Source of the DNA: Spiroplasma attinicola
GTDB lineage: Bacteria > Bacillota_I > Bacilli_A > Mycoplasmatales > VBWQ01
Assembly (NCBI RefSeq): GCF_023509825.1
Contig: NZ_JAKQXY010000002.1
Location: 124,001-188,000 of the forward strand
Direction: 5' to 3'
Length of the DNA: 64,000 nt
This document shows, in pieces, positions 13,966 to 53,454 of this stretch (within the stretch, counting starts at the first letter, position 1; each line of letters opens with the position of its first letter). The notes beneath the pieces were generated by a model, which worked only from the letters and a program-made list of their open reading frames with translations, ran no database searches and was not told where the DNA came from. The position numbers and the translations under genes were made by a program.

Positions 13966-15429
13966 TTAATTTGGATAAAGACGCAGTGTAATAACTTTAC
14001 TTTCTGCTTCATTAATTCCAAGAATACATTTTGTTAATAAATATTCATAATCACCAGTTGTTTCACCATTACTTAATCTTTCATCTGTGACATCAGTTTG
14101 TATTGTTTGTCCATCTACTCGTGCTGATGTATATAACCGAGCAATTGTTAAATTTTCGTTAAGATAATTTTGAATTTTTTCACTAGTAATACTATTAATT
14201 ACGATATTTAACATTTGGTTTTTAATTGAATCAATCTTTACTGTTGCTTTATCATAAGTAATTGTTGTTGAATTATTTGTGCTACTTAAATAATTAAGTA
14301 AAGTTGCATCAATAATAACAGGATTAAGATGGACAATTTTAGTGCTACTTAATAATATATTTTTAAAAGTAAGATTGAATCAAGTTGTACCACTAGTTGC
14401 TCCATTTCTTAAGTCATCATCTGTTCATGGAGTATGAGTACCACTTATACTACGATTTAAATTAGAAATTATTAAATTTTCTTTAATTTCATTTTGAATC
14501 TTAATGCTCGTAAAAGTATCAACATACATAGTTTTTAATTGGTCTGTAACTGTTGTAATTGTTGCTATTGTTTGATCATAATTAACTGTAAAACCTGTTA
14601 ATGTATTTAATTGCTTAGTTATTACATCTTCAGATCAAACATTAGTACCGACTGTCATTGTTAAGTTTGTTGTTTGGTTTGCAATATTATCATAATTGTA
14701 ATTAATCTTAGCATTAATTGTTTGTTCTGTTGTTAAATCACTATTTTGTAAATCATTACCATTAACAGTAATTTTATTAAAAGTAAACAAATTAGCATTA
14801 AATCCTGTTTTATTTTGGAATGTTAATTTTGATTGAATGAATAAAGGCATAAATATTAAATCATCAATTGTGCTATTAATTTCAACATTTGTTTCATAAG
14901 TAGTAATATTAATTTGATTAACTATATCAGTAGTATTTTTATCTGAAATTGTAATTATTAGATTGGTTGTTTGATTTTTAATTGAGTCATAATTATAAAT
15001 AAGTTTAGCATTAATTGTTCCAATTGTTTTTAGATTATTATCTACTAAATCATTTTTACCAACAGTAATTTTTACAAGTGCAAATTTATTTTTATTAGCT
15101 TCAAATGTAGTTTTATTGTCACCTGTTAATTTTGCACTAATAAAATCACTAGTAATTAGATTATTAATAGATGTTGCTGTGCTATCAGTAGTATTTGCTA
15201 TTACTTCAAGATTTGTGATCTTGTTAATTTCATTAACAATTTTCTGTGTTGGAGTAATAGTATTATGAGAACTATTTTCAATACCTAATCCTATTCCTAA
15301 ACCAACAGCTAAACCAACCGTTATGATTCCTAATGCTGTAGCATAAAATTTTCAATTCTTATATAATATTTTCTTTGTTTGTTTTTGTTCTTCAATTGGA
15401 AGAATTTCTTTTGTTAAATCTTGTGCCAT
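13966..15429 (-). CDS. Repeat protein E: anchored, diverged type 2 repeats (487 aa)
   Basis: Unknown function. Starts MAQDLTKEILPIEEQKQ, then KKILYKNWKFYATALG and a glycine-rich helix (VGLAVGLGIGLGI), no lipobox. The outer part holds about four type 2 units. The first two are clear (KLIYNYDSIKNQTTNLIIT and KINYNYDNIANQTTNLTMT); the last two are strongly diverged and shorter. The Trp codons in KNWK, TTWF, TPWTD and after DV are TGA, which would otherwise break the gene into pieces. The ribosome site is AAAGGAGAT, the stop TAA. Its promoter carries a C/T-rich spacer (15458-15488). Confidence 0.88.
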
Positions 15430-15457: not shown

Positions 15458-15488
15458 ATTATATCACTCTCAGGAGGAGGGGGAGCAA
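15458..15488 (-). promoter_or_regulatory. Candidate promoter with C/T-rich spacer, gene E
   Basis: Minus strand: TTGCTC (15483-15488), a 19-base spacer beginning CCCCTCCTCCTGAG and ending GTGA, then TATAAT (15458-15463). The same TTGCT...(C-rich)...TGA(-10) layout is seen at 8201-8227 and 51326-51354 with other spacer lengths. Confidence 0.55.
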
Positions 15489-48394: not shown

Positions 48395-49942
48395 ATGAAA
48401 AAAAATATTACAGAACAAAAAAAGAAAAAACTATACAAAAATTGAAAACTTTACGCTACGGCATTAGCAATCATCTTAATTGGTGCTGCTACAGGATTAG
48501 GAATTTATTTTGGAACTGCCAATCACTCTGAGATATCTAAAACAGTTTTAAATGATCTTAACACAGAAGCCATTACTGGTAGTGAAAATATGTCAGAAGC
48601 AGATGCATTTAATGCTTTTTTAGATAATAATAAAAATAAAAATCTTACTGATTTAAGAGATAGTGTTGATTTAACATTTATTAAACCAACTTATACAAGT
48701 ACAGGTTTATTAACTATTACTGCTAAAACAAATAGTAAATACACAGGAAGCATTGAAGTAACTATTACTCATCTTGAAATAACTAGTCAAGAAATTGTTA
48801 CAGCAATTAATCAAATTCAATATACAGAAAAAGTTAATTTTAAAAGTTCAATTGCTGAATTAAAAGCAACAATCGTAACTGAATTTATTGACACAAAATT
48901 AACTGGTGAAATTAAAAAAGCATACAAAGCAGATAACTTTACTTTAAATGACATTTTTAATGAAGATAATACCGGATTAACAAATGAAAATTTTGAACAT
49001 GTTGGAACTATTAATGCAAAAATTAATTACAATTACGATAATATTACAAATCAAACAACAAACTTAACAATTACAGTTGCTGAAGCTGAAATTAATGATA
49101 AATTTGAATTAAACGATGGTAATATAAATACTTTAATCCAAGCTTCAAATGATAAATTATATCTTGGAACAACTAATGGCAATGTTTGAGAAATTAATTT
49201 AAGCGATAATAAAGCTAATAAAAAATTTGAATTGAATGATGGTAATGTAAATACTTTAATCCAAGCTTCAAATGGTAAGTTGTATGCGGGAACAATTAAA
49301 AATGATGTTTGAGAAATTGATTTAGAAAATGATTCTACAGTATTAAAATTTAAAGACTATGGTGATAATTATGATACTACAGTATTAATTGAAGGAAACA
49401 ATGGTAAGTTGTATGCTGGAACTGGGATTGGTAATGTTTATGAACTTGACTTAGAAACAAATCAAATCTATAAATATCGTCTTGAAGATTGAGGCAATGT
49501 AAACGGTTTACTTCAATCTGAAAATGGTAAGTTGTATGCTGGAACAACTGAAGGAAAAATATGAGAAATTGATTTAGAAACTCAAACAAATAAAATCCTA
49601 GTTGATAATGGCAGAGATAATGCTATTTTAGATATGAAAGAAATTGAAGCTAATAAACTAGTTTTAACATCAAAAGATAAAGTTTATCAGTTTGATCTAA
49701 ATACTAATGAACTATCAGAAATAATTAATTTAGAAGATGGAGAAATATTCGCTTTAGTTGAAGGTTCAAATAAAGAATTATATGTTTCAACAGTAAATGG
49801 TAATATTTATGAACTTGACTTAGTAAAACATGAAATAAAAAATAAGTATGAAATAAATACTTCAGTATATTCATTAATAATTATTGACAAAAAGATTTAT
49901 GCTGGTACAAAAACTAGTGTTTGAGAATTAGCTATTGTCTAA
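48395..49942 (+). CDS. Repeat protein H: anchored, type 1 + type 2 units and a seven-blade propeller (515 aa)
   Basis: Unknown function. MKKNITEQKKKKLYKNWKL, glycine-rich helix (IILIGAATGLGIYFG), no lipobox. One type 1 unit (GSENMSEADAFNAFLDNNKN) resembles that of gene G, and one type 2 unit follows (QEIVTAINQIQYTEKVNF to INAKINYNYDNITNQ). The C-terminal ~290 residues hold seven units of ~40 with the pattern (N)GKLYAGT..GNVWEIDLE.., which predicts a closed seven-blade beta-propeller facing outward (inference). From codon ~112 to the stop the gene is ~98% identical to the gene at 51403. AGAGGTATGTATTAAAATT precedes the ATG. Trp in WEI are TGA. Confidence 0.88.
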
Positions 49943-50109: not shown

Positions 50110-51102
50110 TTACAAATAATATCTCTTTAAACTACGATAAAGAATTGGAGTTAATAGTTGAATGACTGGATAAGTAAAAAGAAAAATATTAATAAAGTTA
50201 TAAATTAAAGCATATCAAATCGCACTATAACCAGTTCAAATATTATTAGGAAAAAATGTTGTTCATAAAAAATAACCTGATAAAAATTGACAAAAATATA
50301 TTAATAATAAAACTAAAAAACAATGATAAAAATAAGTAAGATAAGTAAAAAGAGATTTTTTACCATTAAAAGGAGAAGGAAAAAAAGCAACAATCGCTGG
50401 GATAGTCATCGGTAAAAAGTAATCTAAAATAAAACTTCAAGGACTAATAATATTACTTGCTGGAATAAATAATAATGTCATTAAAGCGCTAATAAAACCA
50501 GTTAATCAGCCATGTAAAAATGAAATTAAAAAACTAATTAAAATTAAAGGTAGATATTTAATTCCTAAACCACCACCAAAAGGTAAATGTGGTAATAAAT
50601 TTTCTTCAATAAAACTAAAAATAATTGTTAAAGCACAAAAAAAAGCAATCAAAACATAATCAATCGTTAATCACTTTTTAATTCCTAGATTTCTTTTAAA
50701 ATTAGCAAAATAATTTTTTGCTTTCAAAGTAAAATTTTTATTTTGATAGCAGTTGTTAATTACAAATCAACTACCATAAAAATTCAATGTTGAAAATACT
50801 AACAATAAACTAAGAAAAAAATTATCATTAATTGCTAAAATTCAATCCTTTTGAAAACTAATCATTGTTCATAAACTAGCAATAATGATAATTAAAGTTA
50901 GAATTAATAATAAAAAAATTTTTAAAGCAAAAAATGTTCAATTATTACTAGTTTGATTAATATTAAAAATATTATTTAGTGTTTGATTATTAATAATGGT
51001 TACTGTAAAAAATAAACTTGTAAAAAGTATTATATTAAAAATACTAGTAATTTTTAATCAAAGATATTTTTGATTAGAATTTGTAATAATTTCTTTAGTC
51101 AT
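50110..51102 (-). CDS. thiT: Predicted thiamine transporter, ThiT-like, with N-terminal extension
   Basis: Membrane protein predicted to take up thiamine with an ECF module coded elsewhere. The 330-residue product is longer than ThiT (about 190). Roughly the last 200 residues carry the ThiT-like run LPFGGGLGIKYLPLILISFL, HGWLTGFISALMTLLFIP and WSFILDYFLPMTIPAIVAFF. The first ~130 residues add two or three helices. Control by the TPP riboswitch just upstream is strong independent support. AAAGGAGTTTTTA precedes the ATG. Many Trp are TGA. I see no clear terminator of its own; the hairpin at 49970-50011 may serve both strands. Confidence 0.85.
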
Positions 51103-51132: not shown

Positions 51133-51222
51133 GAAGTCTAAAACTAATTAAGACTTCCTCCGTTAGGATTAACTAAATCAGGTTCTAAGGGTATTTCTCA
51201 AGCACTTGCTACCCCTGCTTAA
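51133..51222 (-). promoter_or_regulatory. TPP riboswitch with overlapping hairpin
   Basis: The minus strand carries the THI-box core: GGGGTAGCAAGTGCTTGAGA, then AATACCCTTAGAACCTGATT, TAGTTAAT and CTAACGGAGGAAG (51155-51220). The CTGAGA-like TTGAGA, ACCCTTAGAACCTGAT and CGGAGGAAG elements are the conserved TPP-binding parts. Its 3' end, GAAGTCTTAATT, also pairs with AATTAGTTTTAGACTTC (51133-51157) to form a second hairpin followed by T-rich sequence, so ligand-bound and hairpin states should exclude each other. Predicted to switch off the transporter when TPP is plentiful. Confidence 0.93.
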
Positions 51223-51325
51223 TCAAAATAAATTGAATTTATTTAATTTTAAATTTATTTTAACAAAGAAAAGTTAATTAGATAACAATTAATTAATTTA
51301 AAAAAACGAAAAATCTTCAAAAAAT

Positions 51326-51354
51326 ATGCTTTGCCCCCCCCCCCGTGATAAAAT
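51326..51354 (+). promoter_or_regulatory. Candidate phase-variable promoter with C11 tract, gene I
   Basis: -35-like ATGCTT (51326-51331), a 17-base spacer TG, eleven C (51334-51344), GTGA, then -10-like TAAAAT (51349-51354). A run of eleven C is extreme for an AT-rich genome and lies wholly between the promoter boxes. Gain or loss of C by slippage would change spacer length and hence promoter strength. The ATG is 49 bases past the -10. Confidence 0.6.
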
Positions 51355-51402
51355 ATGGTAGAAAATTAAAGCAAATATTAAACAATTGACAGGGAGAAAA
51401 AC

Positions 51403-53454
51403 ATGGCTGAAAATTTATTAAAAAATGAATTTATGTGAGAAGAACAACAAAAAAAGAAAAAACTATATAAAAATTGAAAACTTTATGCTGTAGCATTGGG
51501 AATTATCGTAATTGGATTAGGTGTTGGTTTAGGAGTAGGATTAAGTACTTCTCATAATCAACAAACAACTCCAATAAACTTAAACACTCTTAATAATGTT
51601 ATTTCAGGTAGAGAAGACATGACAGAAGAAGATGTATTTCAAGCATTTGTATCTAATTCAAAAATTACTTTAAAACAAGATAATGTTGAAATTAGTAACT
51701 TTACAAAACCAACTTATACAAATGATGGTGCATTAACTATTACTGTAAAAGAAAATAGTAAAAAATATACAGGAAGTATTACATTAACTATTAGTGCAAT
51801 CGGACAAAAAAATTTAAGTACTCTTGATCTTAAGTTTCCAACAATTCCTGGTACAGAAAATATGAACATAGAAAGTGTATTTGGAATATTTACTTACTAT
51901 AATCCAACAATTGCAAAATATGTTGAAGCTGGAACATTTACGAAACCAACTTATACAACTGATGGTTCATTAATTATTAATGCCATTAAAGATAGCAAAT
52001 ATACTGGCAATGTCACAGTTAAAATTAATGCCATTGGACAAACAAAACTAAGTGATTTAGAACTTAACATAAATCTTACAGGAACAGAAGCAATCCAAAA
52101 TGATGAAACAGGTAACATAGCATTTAATGCTTTTTTAGACGCAAATTCAACTATTAGCGACTTAAAAGATAACCTTGAAATTGGAACATTCGTAGCACCA
52201 ACTGAAACAACTGATGGTTCATTAATTATTAATGCTATAACAAATAGTAAATACACAGGAAGCATTGAAGTAACTATTACTCATCTTGAAATAACTAGTC
52301 AAGAAATTGTTACAGCAATTAATCAAATTCAATATACAGAAAAAGTTAATTTTAAAAGTTCAATTGCTGAATTAAAAGCAACAATCGTAACTGAATTTAT
52401 TGACACAAAATTAACTGGTGAAATTAAAAAAGCATACAAAGCAGATAACTTTACTTTAAATGGCATTTTTAATGAAGATAATACCGGATTAACAAATGAA
52501 AATTTTGAACATGTTGGAACTATTAATGCAAAAATTAATTACAATTACGATAATATTACAAATCAAACAACAAACTTAACAATTACAGTTGCTGAAGCTG
52601 AAATTAATGATAAATTTGAGTTAAACGATGGTAATGTAAATAGTTTAATTCAAGCTTCAAATGATAAATTATATCTTGGAACAACTAATGGCAATGTTTG
52701 AGAAATTAATTTAAGCGATAATAAAACTAATAAAAAATTTGAATTGAATGATGGTAATGTAAATACTTTAATCCAAGCTTCAAATGGTAAGTTGTATGCG
52801 GGAACAACTAATAACGATGTTTGAGAAATTGATTTAGAAAGTGATTCTACAGTATTAAAATTTAAAGACTATGGTGATAATTATGATACTACAGTATTAA
52901 TTGAAGGAAACAATGGTAAGTTGTATGCTGGAACTGGGATTGGTAATGTTTATGAACTTAACTTAGAAACAAATCAAACCTATAAATATCGTCTTGCAGA
53001 TTGGGGCAATGTAAATGGTTTACTTCAATCTGAAAATGGTAAGTTATATGCTGGAACAACTGAAGGAAAAATATGAGAAATTGATTTAGAAACTCAAACA
53101 AACAAAAACCTATTTGATAATGGCACAGATAATGCTATTTTAGATATGAAAGAAATTGAAGCTAATAAACTAGTTTTAACATCAAAAGATAAAGTTTATC
53201 AGTTTGATCTAAATACTAATGAACTATCAGAAATAATTAATTTAGAAGATGGAGAAATATTCGCTTTAGTTGAAGGTTCAAATAAAGAATTATATGTTTC
53301 AACAGTAAATGGTAATATTTATGAACTTGACTTAGTAAAACATGAAATAAAAAATAAGTATGAAATAAATACTTCAGTATATTCATTAATAATTATTGAC
53401 AAAAAGATTTATGCTGGTACAAAAACTAGTGTTTGAGAATTAGCTATTGTCTAA
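51403..53454 (+). CDS. Repeat protein I: anchored, three to four type 1 units, type 2 unit and propeller (683 aa)
   Basis: Unknown function. MAENLLKNEFMWEEQQKKKK, LYKNWKLYAVALG and a glycine-rich helix (IVIGLGVGLGVGLS), no lipobox. Type 1 units start at NNVISGREDMTEEDVF, TIPGTENMNIESVF and NLTGTEAIQNDETG; the third fuses into the shared block at codon ~280. From there to the stop it equals the 48395 gene at ~98%: one type 2 unit and a seven-blade propeller. One propeller Trp is TGG here and TGA in the other copy. ACAGGGAGAAAAAC precedes the ATG. Its promoter holds the C11 tract. Confidence 0.9.

Follow-up and report, generated by a model that had tools for sequence, protein, structure and literature searches.

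A Poly-C Tract in a Likely Surface-Gene Promoter of Spiroplasma

An uninterrupted run of eleven C residues (C11) separates the likely promoter boxes of P0001, a gene for a predicted surface protein of Spiroplasma attinicola, and is probably the length-variable element of a promoter contingency locus that acts through spacer length, in the manner of the opc gene of Neisseria. The run lies in a 64-kb window (the whole stretch of DNA that was analysed, referred to here as the window) of a genome of 835,706 bp, assembled in 4 contigs and with a GC content of about 25%. Spiroplasma attinicola from Trachymyrmex ants has been described with genomes of 835–884 kb, a GC content of 25.5–25.8% and a type III system (PMC12239587).

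The anatomy of the promoter can be read directly from the sequence of the window. On the forward strand, a -35-like hexamer, ATGCTT, occupies 51326–51331 and is followed by a 17-bp spacer (51332–51348) consisting of TG, the C11 tract (51334–51344) and GTGA, and then by the hexamer TAAAAT at 51349–51354. An earlier, first-pass annotation of this DNA had placed the tract between these same two hexamers with a spacer of 17 bases, and that description is exact. The -10 region is better than was claimed, since the hexamer is preceded by TGA to give an extended -10 (51346–51354), in the TGN-TANAAT arrangement that is common to the other poly-C loci described below. The -35-like hexamer is weak, however, matching TTGACA at only two of six positions, and a mechanical scan for the sigma-70 consensus did not call the P0001 promoter. 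The hallmark of opc/vlp-type loci, an uninterrupted simple repeat in the promoter spacer, is thus present as C11 next to TGATAAAAT, with a weak -35 element. Downstream, TAAAAT is separated by 48 bp from the ATG at 51403, and a GGGAG sequence is located upstream of this start codon. A perfect TTGACA also occurs just 5′ of the ATG (window 51386–51391), without a usable -10 before the start codon, and is likely a coincidence.

Long C/G runs are rare in this DNA. The window contains no C/G run of 7 or more apart from C11, and a first-order Markov model trained on about 157 kb of the genome predicts, for 835,706 bp of the same composition, 0.016 runs of at least 9 and 0.0003 runs of at least 11. 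For any one intergenic position, TGNTANAAT has a chance of about 0.014 of starting within 13 nt.

The P0001 Gene, Its Family and Its Neighbours

Read with TGA as Trp, the P0001 open reading frame (51403–53454, plus strand) encodes 683 amino acids, with a Lys-rich N terminus, one transmembrane segment and C-terminal beta-propeller repeats. Domain searches gave a weak match to the Spiralin domain (E = 0.0039, under the curated cut-off). From these features the product is predicted to be a membrane-anchored surface protein, which is the kind of product encoded by opc/vlp-type loci.

P0001 belongs to a large family, with 63 matches to it in its own genome. For example, sequence comparison identified a tandem paralogue at 48395–49942 (plus strand) whose C-terminal part is 92% identical to that of P0001, while its N terminus differs and its upstream region is different and devoid of a C tract. 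Of those members of the family for which the upstream sequence was inspected, P0001 alone has a poly-C run, whereas in the vlp system a tract is found at every vlp gene. One other member (ORF 13966–15429, minus strand) possesses a C-rich promoter spacer, CCCCCTCCTCCTGAGAGTGATATAAT, at 15458–15483, but this spacer is imperfect (CCCCCTCCTCCT) and possibly represents a decayed tract. With poly-C runs absent from the other members inspected, the tract belongs to the P0001 gene and does not characterize the family, and the original proposal that it controls the family as a whole was rejected.

The divergent neighbour of P0001 is a gene for a ThiT/YuaJ-type thiamine transporter (50110–51102, minus strand; Pfam PF09515, E = 1.4e-15). 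Its TPP riboswitch (51137–51226, minus strand; Rfam RF00059, 62.3 bits) forms the far-side boundary of the intergenic region in which the C11 tract resides. In the region of the nearest relative (congener G002) that is syntenic to the P0001 locus, the riboswitch side is kept, a different gene is present, and there is no C tract.

A Second Poly-C Promoter and Other Long Runs in the Genome

Runs of nine or more C or G residues occur at only six places in the genome: two surface-gene promoters, a G13 run in a methyltransferase gene (mod), and three CRISPR spacers. All six are either of the contingency type or within CRISPR spacers.

The second promoter, at C1:686, comprises TTGTCT, a 17-bp spacer containing C9, and TACAAT, and is located 58 bp upstream of the gene for P0002, a lipoprotein unrelated to P0001. 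The two promoters differ in tract length (C11 versus C9) and in the length of the downstream flank (4 versus 6 bp), yet both have a spacer of 17 bp and a TGA extended -10. In both congeners, the P0002 orthologue has an ordinary promoter, similarly distant from the start codon and free of C-runs, indicating that the C tract at C1:686 is derived. A run of five or more C's followed within 13 nt by TGNTANAAT was found at just three sites genome-wide, each of them upstream of a surface-protein gene, and a reversed-pattern control gave 0 matches in the same genome. In congener G002, the same pattern occurs at two sites, both within genes.

The mod gene (L011, G000:C1:617187-618861; N6_N4_Mtase, E = 5.6e-36) encodes a type III methyltransferase and is followed by a res-like gene. 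Its G13 run is in frame, a homopolymer within the reading frame being typical of phase-variable type III mod genes, and the locus is a probable phase-variable restriction-modification system. No homologue of this methyltransferase gene was found in the two congeners. Nearby, a C8...G6 hairpin, CCCCCCCCAGTTTTCTGGAGGGGGG, is situated upstream of a membrane-protein gene on the minus strand (L011, G000:C1:about 615700-615730).

Poly-C Promoters in Other Species

A search for TTG-C9-N2-12-TANAAT in 320 genomes of the order returned four matches, each preceding a gene for a surface protein or lipoprotein, and the reversed-pattern control returned 0 in the same 320 genomes. These matches represent the two sites in the present genome and one orthologous lipoprotein promoter shared by two Mycoplasmopsis species, in which the tract is C10 in M. 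agalactiae 14628 and C9 in the other species. Like the P0001 promoter, the promoters of M. agalactiae 14628 and its sister species (L099, L100, L152) have an extended -10, within the arrangement TTG-Cn-N8-TATAAT; unlike P0001, the lipoprotein of M. agalactiae 14628 is unrelated and appears DUF285-like by eye. No report of its promoter tract was found in the literature searched. The congener Spiroplasma platyhelix has a similar arrangement, TTG-C13-GAGAAAATGATAAAAT, at another locus, in front of a lipoprotein gene.

A broader search of the 320 genomes, for C9-N1-13-TGNTANAAT, was less clean and produced 17 matches at 9 loci as compared to 6 control matches, with some of the 9 loci not being promoters of a same-strand gene. 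One of the sites, in genome G255, looks like a real promoter, with TTGTCA, a 15-bp spacer containing C9, and TATAAT; a surface-type gene lies farther downstream.

The Proposed Switch and Its Alternatives

In the proposed mechanism, slipped-strand mispairing at replication would add C's to the C11 tract or remove them, and the number of C's would alter the distance between the -10 region and the upstream promoter contacts. Provided that the two hexamers are the boxes in use, such changes in spacing would result in random on/off or graded transcription of P0001 among sister cells. Because C11 yields a spacer of 17 bp, the sequenced state is probably, and most simply, ON. The C9 tract at C1:686, also within 17 bp, would serve as the same switch for the unrelated lipoprotein P0002. 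As a switch for one gene, the idea put forward in the first-pass annotation is favoured by the position of the tract in the spacer of a plausible surface-gene promoter, by the recurrence of this geometry in the same genome and in other Mollicutes, and by the C-run lengths of CRISPR spacers discussed below; it is the extension to family-wide control that did not hold.

A close rival, though an unlikely one, agrees that the tract varies and matters but assigns the role of true -35 to TTGCCC, an invariant hexamer with which the tract begins. Tract length would then determine how far TTGCCC lies from the -10, so that the 12 bp seen here would correspond to OFF and a tract of about C16 to ON. TTG does directly adjoin the C-run at each of the four independent TTG-C loci (the window, C1:686, S. 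platyhelix and Mycoplasmopsis), and TTGCCC matches TTGACA at four of six positions, compared to two of six for ATGCTT. However, some of these loci came from a search pattern that required TTG. Moreover, both loci of the present genome maintain exactly 17 bp to the upstream hexamer despite having C11 in one case and C9 in the other, and the upstream hexamer at the second, TTGTCT, itself scores four of six.

A spacer-length switch is also favoured over a purely structural role, in which poly-C would be an element of fixed length (a template-strand G-quadruplex, an i-motif or rigid DNA) with no switching at all. The G11 of the template strand could form a non-B structure, and C-runs do recur at a fixed promoter position. 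Against this, tract length varies with locus and species (9, 9/10, 11, 13), flank length varies inversely with that of the tract in the present genome, and two tracts are pure, lacking the interruptions that would permit structure yet block slippage. A structural role is considered improbable.

Apparent Slippage Recorded in CRISPR Spacers

The genome carries a Cas9-type CRISPR array of 80 spacers (L010 4992-10317; G000:C1:404991-410316) that adjoins the cas9 gene. Spacer length is exactly 30 nt in 75 of the 80, and three of the five exceptions are found among the four spacers with C7 or more: C12 in 35 nt, C13 in 35 nt and C7 in 29 nt (hypergeometric P = 4.8e-4 for the association). One more off-length spacer holds T9. 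The four poly-C spacers, together with a fifth that ends in C6, appear to derive from one site of a mobile element. This source element had no match in viral contigs or, outside the array, in genomes of the family; one irrelevant match turned up, and phage records gave nothing convincing. Viral contigs likewise contained no copy of the exact C11 tract with a different length.

The coincidence of off-length spacers with long C-runs suggests slippage after acquisition. If the spacers entered at 30 nt, their tracts would have started at about C7–C9 and undergone changes of +5, +5 and -1 afterwards. This interpretation depends on a fixed acquisition length, in support of which stand the other 75 spacers. 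With entry at 30 nt, subsequent changes in length would become readable, and the array could serve as a record of slippage. C-runs appear to have changed length in this very lineage, which is the strongest internal support for slippage of C-runs in this genome. CRISPR spacers would also provide an independent, promoter-free gauge of how unstable poly-C is in this genome, and one that is usable in other organisms.

The same spacers lend something to a neutral explanation, namely that in this lineage every C-run expands once it has arisen and that those near promoters are there by chance, since those in the array apparently grew by 5 without any promoter role. Outside the array, however, there are just three runs of at least 9. 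Two of these occupy surface-gene promoter spacers of identical length, and the mod gene carries the third in frame. An extended -10 accompanies both intergenic runs, for which the chance is about 0.014 squared. Neutral expansion, like a structural role, is therefore less likely than the TTGCCC alternative and has little probability. Least likely of all, and hardly credible, is that the length or presence of the tract is an artefact of sequencing or assembly: homopolymers are error-prone and the assembly is in 4 contigs, but C11 has unique flanks on both sides, the genome has no general excess of runs, and the reads would be PCR-free MiSeq 2x250 should the genome be among the S. attinicola isolates described (PMC12239587).

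Comparison with Known Systems

The closest known counterpart is the opc (opcA) gene of Neisseria meningitidis, whose poly-C promoter tract is C11 in a parental strain and C12 in high-expressing variants (PMC3447861). Both loci have a poly-C run of about equal length in the promoter of a surface-protein gene. They differ in that opc encodes an unrelated outer-membrane protein of a Gram-negative host and its switch was shown by experiment, whereas that of P0001 we infer from sequence.

Within the Mollicutes, simple repeats in the promoters of surface lipoprotein genes mediate transcriptional ON/OFF switching in the vlp system of Mycoplasma hyorhinis (poly-A) and in vmm of M. mycoides (a dinucleotide) (PMC10502178). 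The P0001 tract is similar in being a simple repeat in a surface-gene promoter of a member of the Mollicutes. It is poly-C, in contrast to the poly-A or dinucleotide repeats of these systems, that of vmm being TA.

In relevant passages of Nouvel et al. (PMC2824730), the spma genes of M. agalactiae are described as having, in their 5′ untranslated region, poly-G tracts as long as 13, with slippage of poly-G (or C) proposed, and the poly-G tracts of P48-like/P68 in M. agalactiae and M. bovis as acting by frameshift. These genes, which like P0001 encode surface proteins, share with it a mollicute host, long G/C runs at the 5′ end and suspected slippage. The spma tracts differ in being poly-G, and the same passages (PMC2824730) report no placement in a promoter.

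Presentation of the poly-C switch as a new case was accordingly overstated, given that opc is established and poly-G upstream of spma is described in those passages. The kind of switch is already known, and the P0001 locus adds to that kind. No report of a poly-C promoter switch in Spiroplasma was found in the literature searched, a search with most subscription journals outside its scope. If the proposed switch is real, the range of simple-repeat promoter switching would widen to include Spiroplasma, here a presumed ant gut symbiont, and poly-C would join poly-A and dinucleotide repeats among the promoter switches known in Mollicutes. A more tentative generalization, and one that may well not hold, is that surface genes across Mollicutes (Spiroplasma, Mycoplasmopsis and others) have repeatedly evolved poly-C/poly-G promoter spacers as a recurring transcriptional switch, with the CRISPR array of the present lineage recording poly-C slippage.

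Other G-Runs near Surface-Protein Genes

Several candidates from other genomes were rejected as poly-C promoters. In G157, the run is poly-G within the frame of a lipoprotein signal peptide, and in G212 and G274 it is poly-G that precedes a surface gene of the opposite strand. As an observation in its own right, the poly-G runs of these three genomes (L183, L184 and L186, respectively) range from 9 to 18 and are located in a signal peptide or upstream of surface-protein genes. S. platyhelix has a G12 run (L044, C1:about 312027-312038) early in a short ORF whose translation begins with MKRLLVSFSLF, which is a possible translational switch or pseudogene. Finally, a genome of the same family (G008; L067, L069-L071, L073-L075) contains repeated membrane-protein-like genes with G7, G8 or G9 near the N terminus, and run lengths of 7, 8 and 9 would shift the reading frame.
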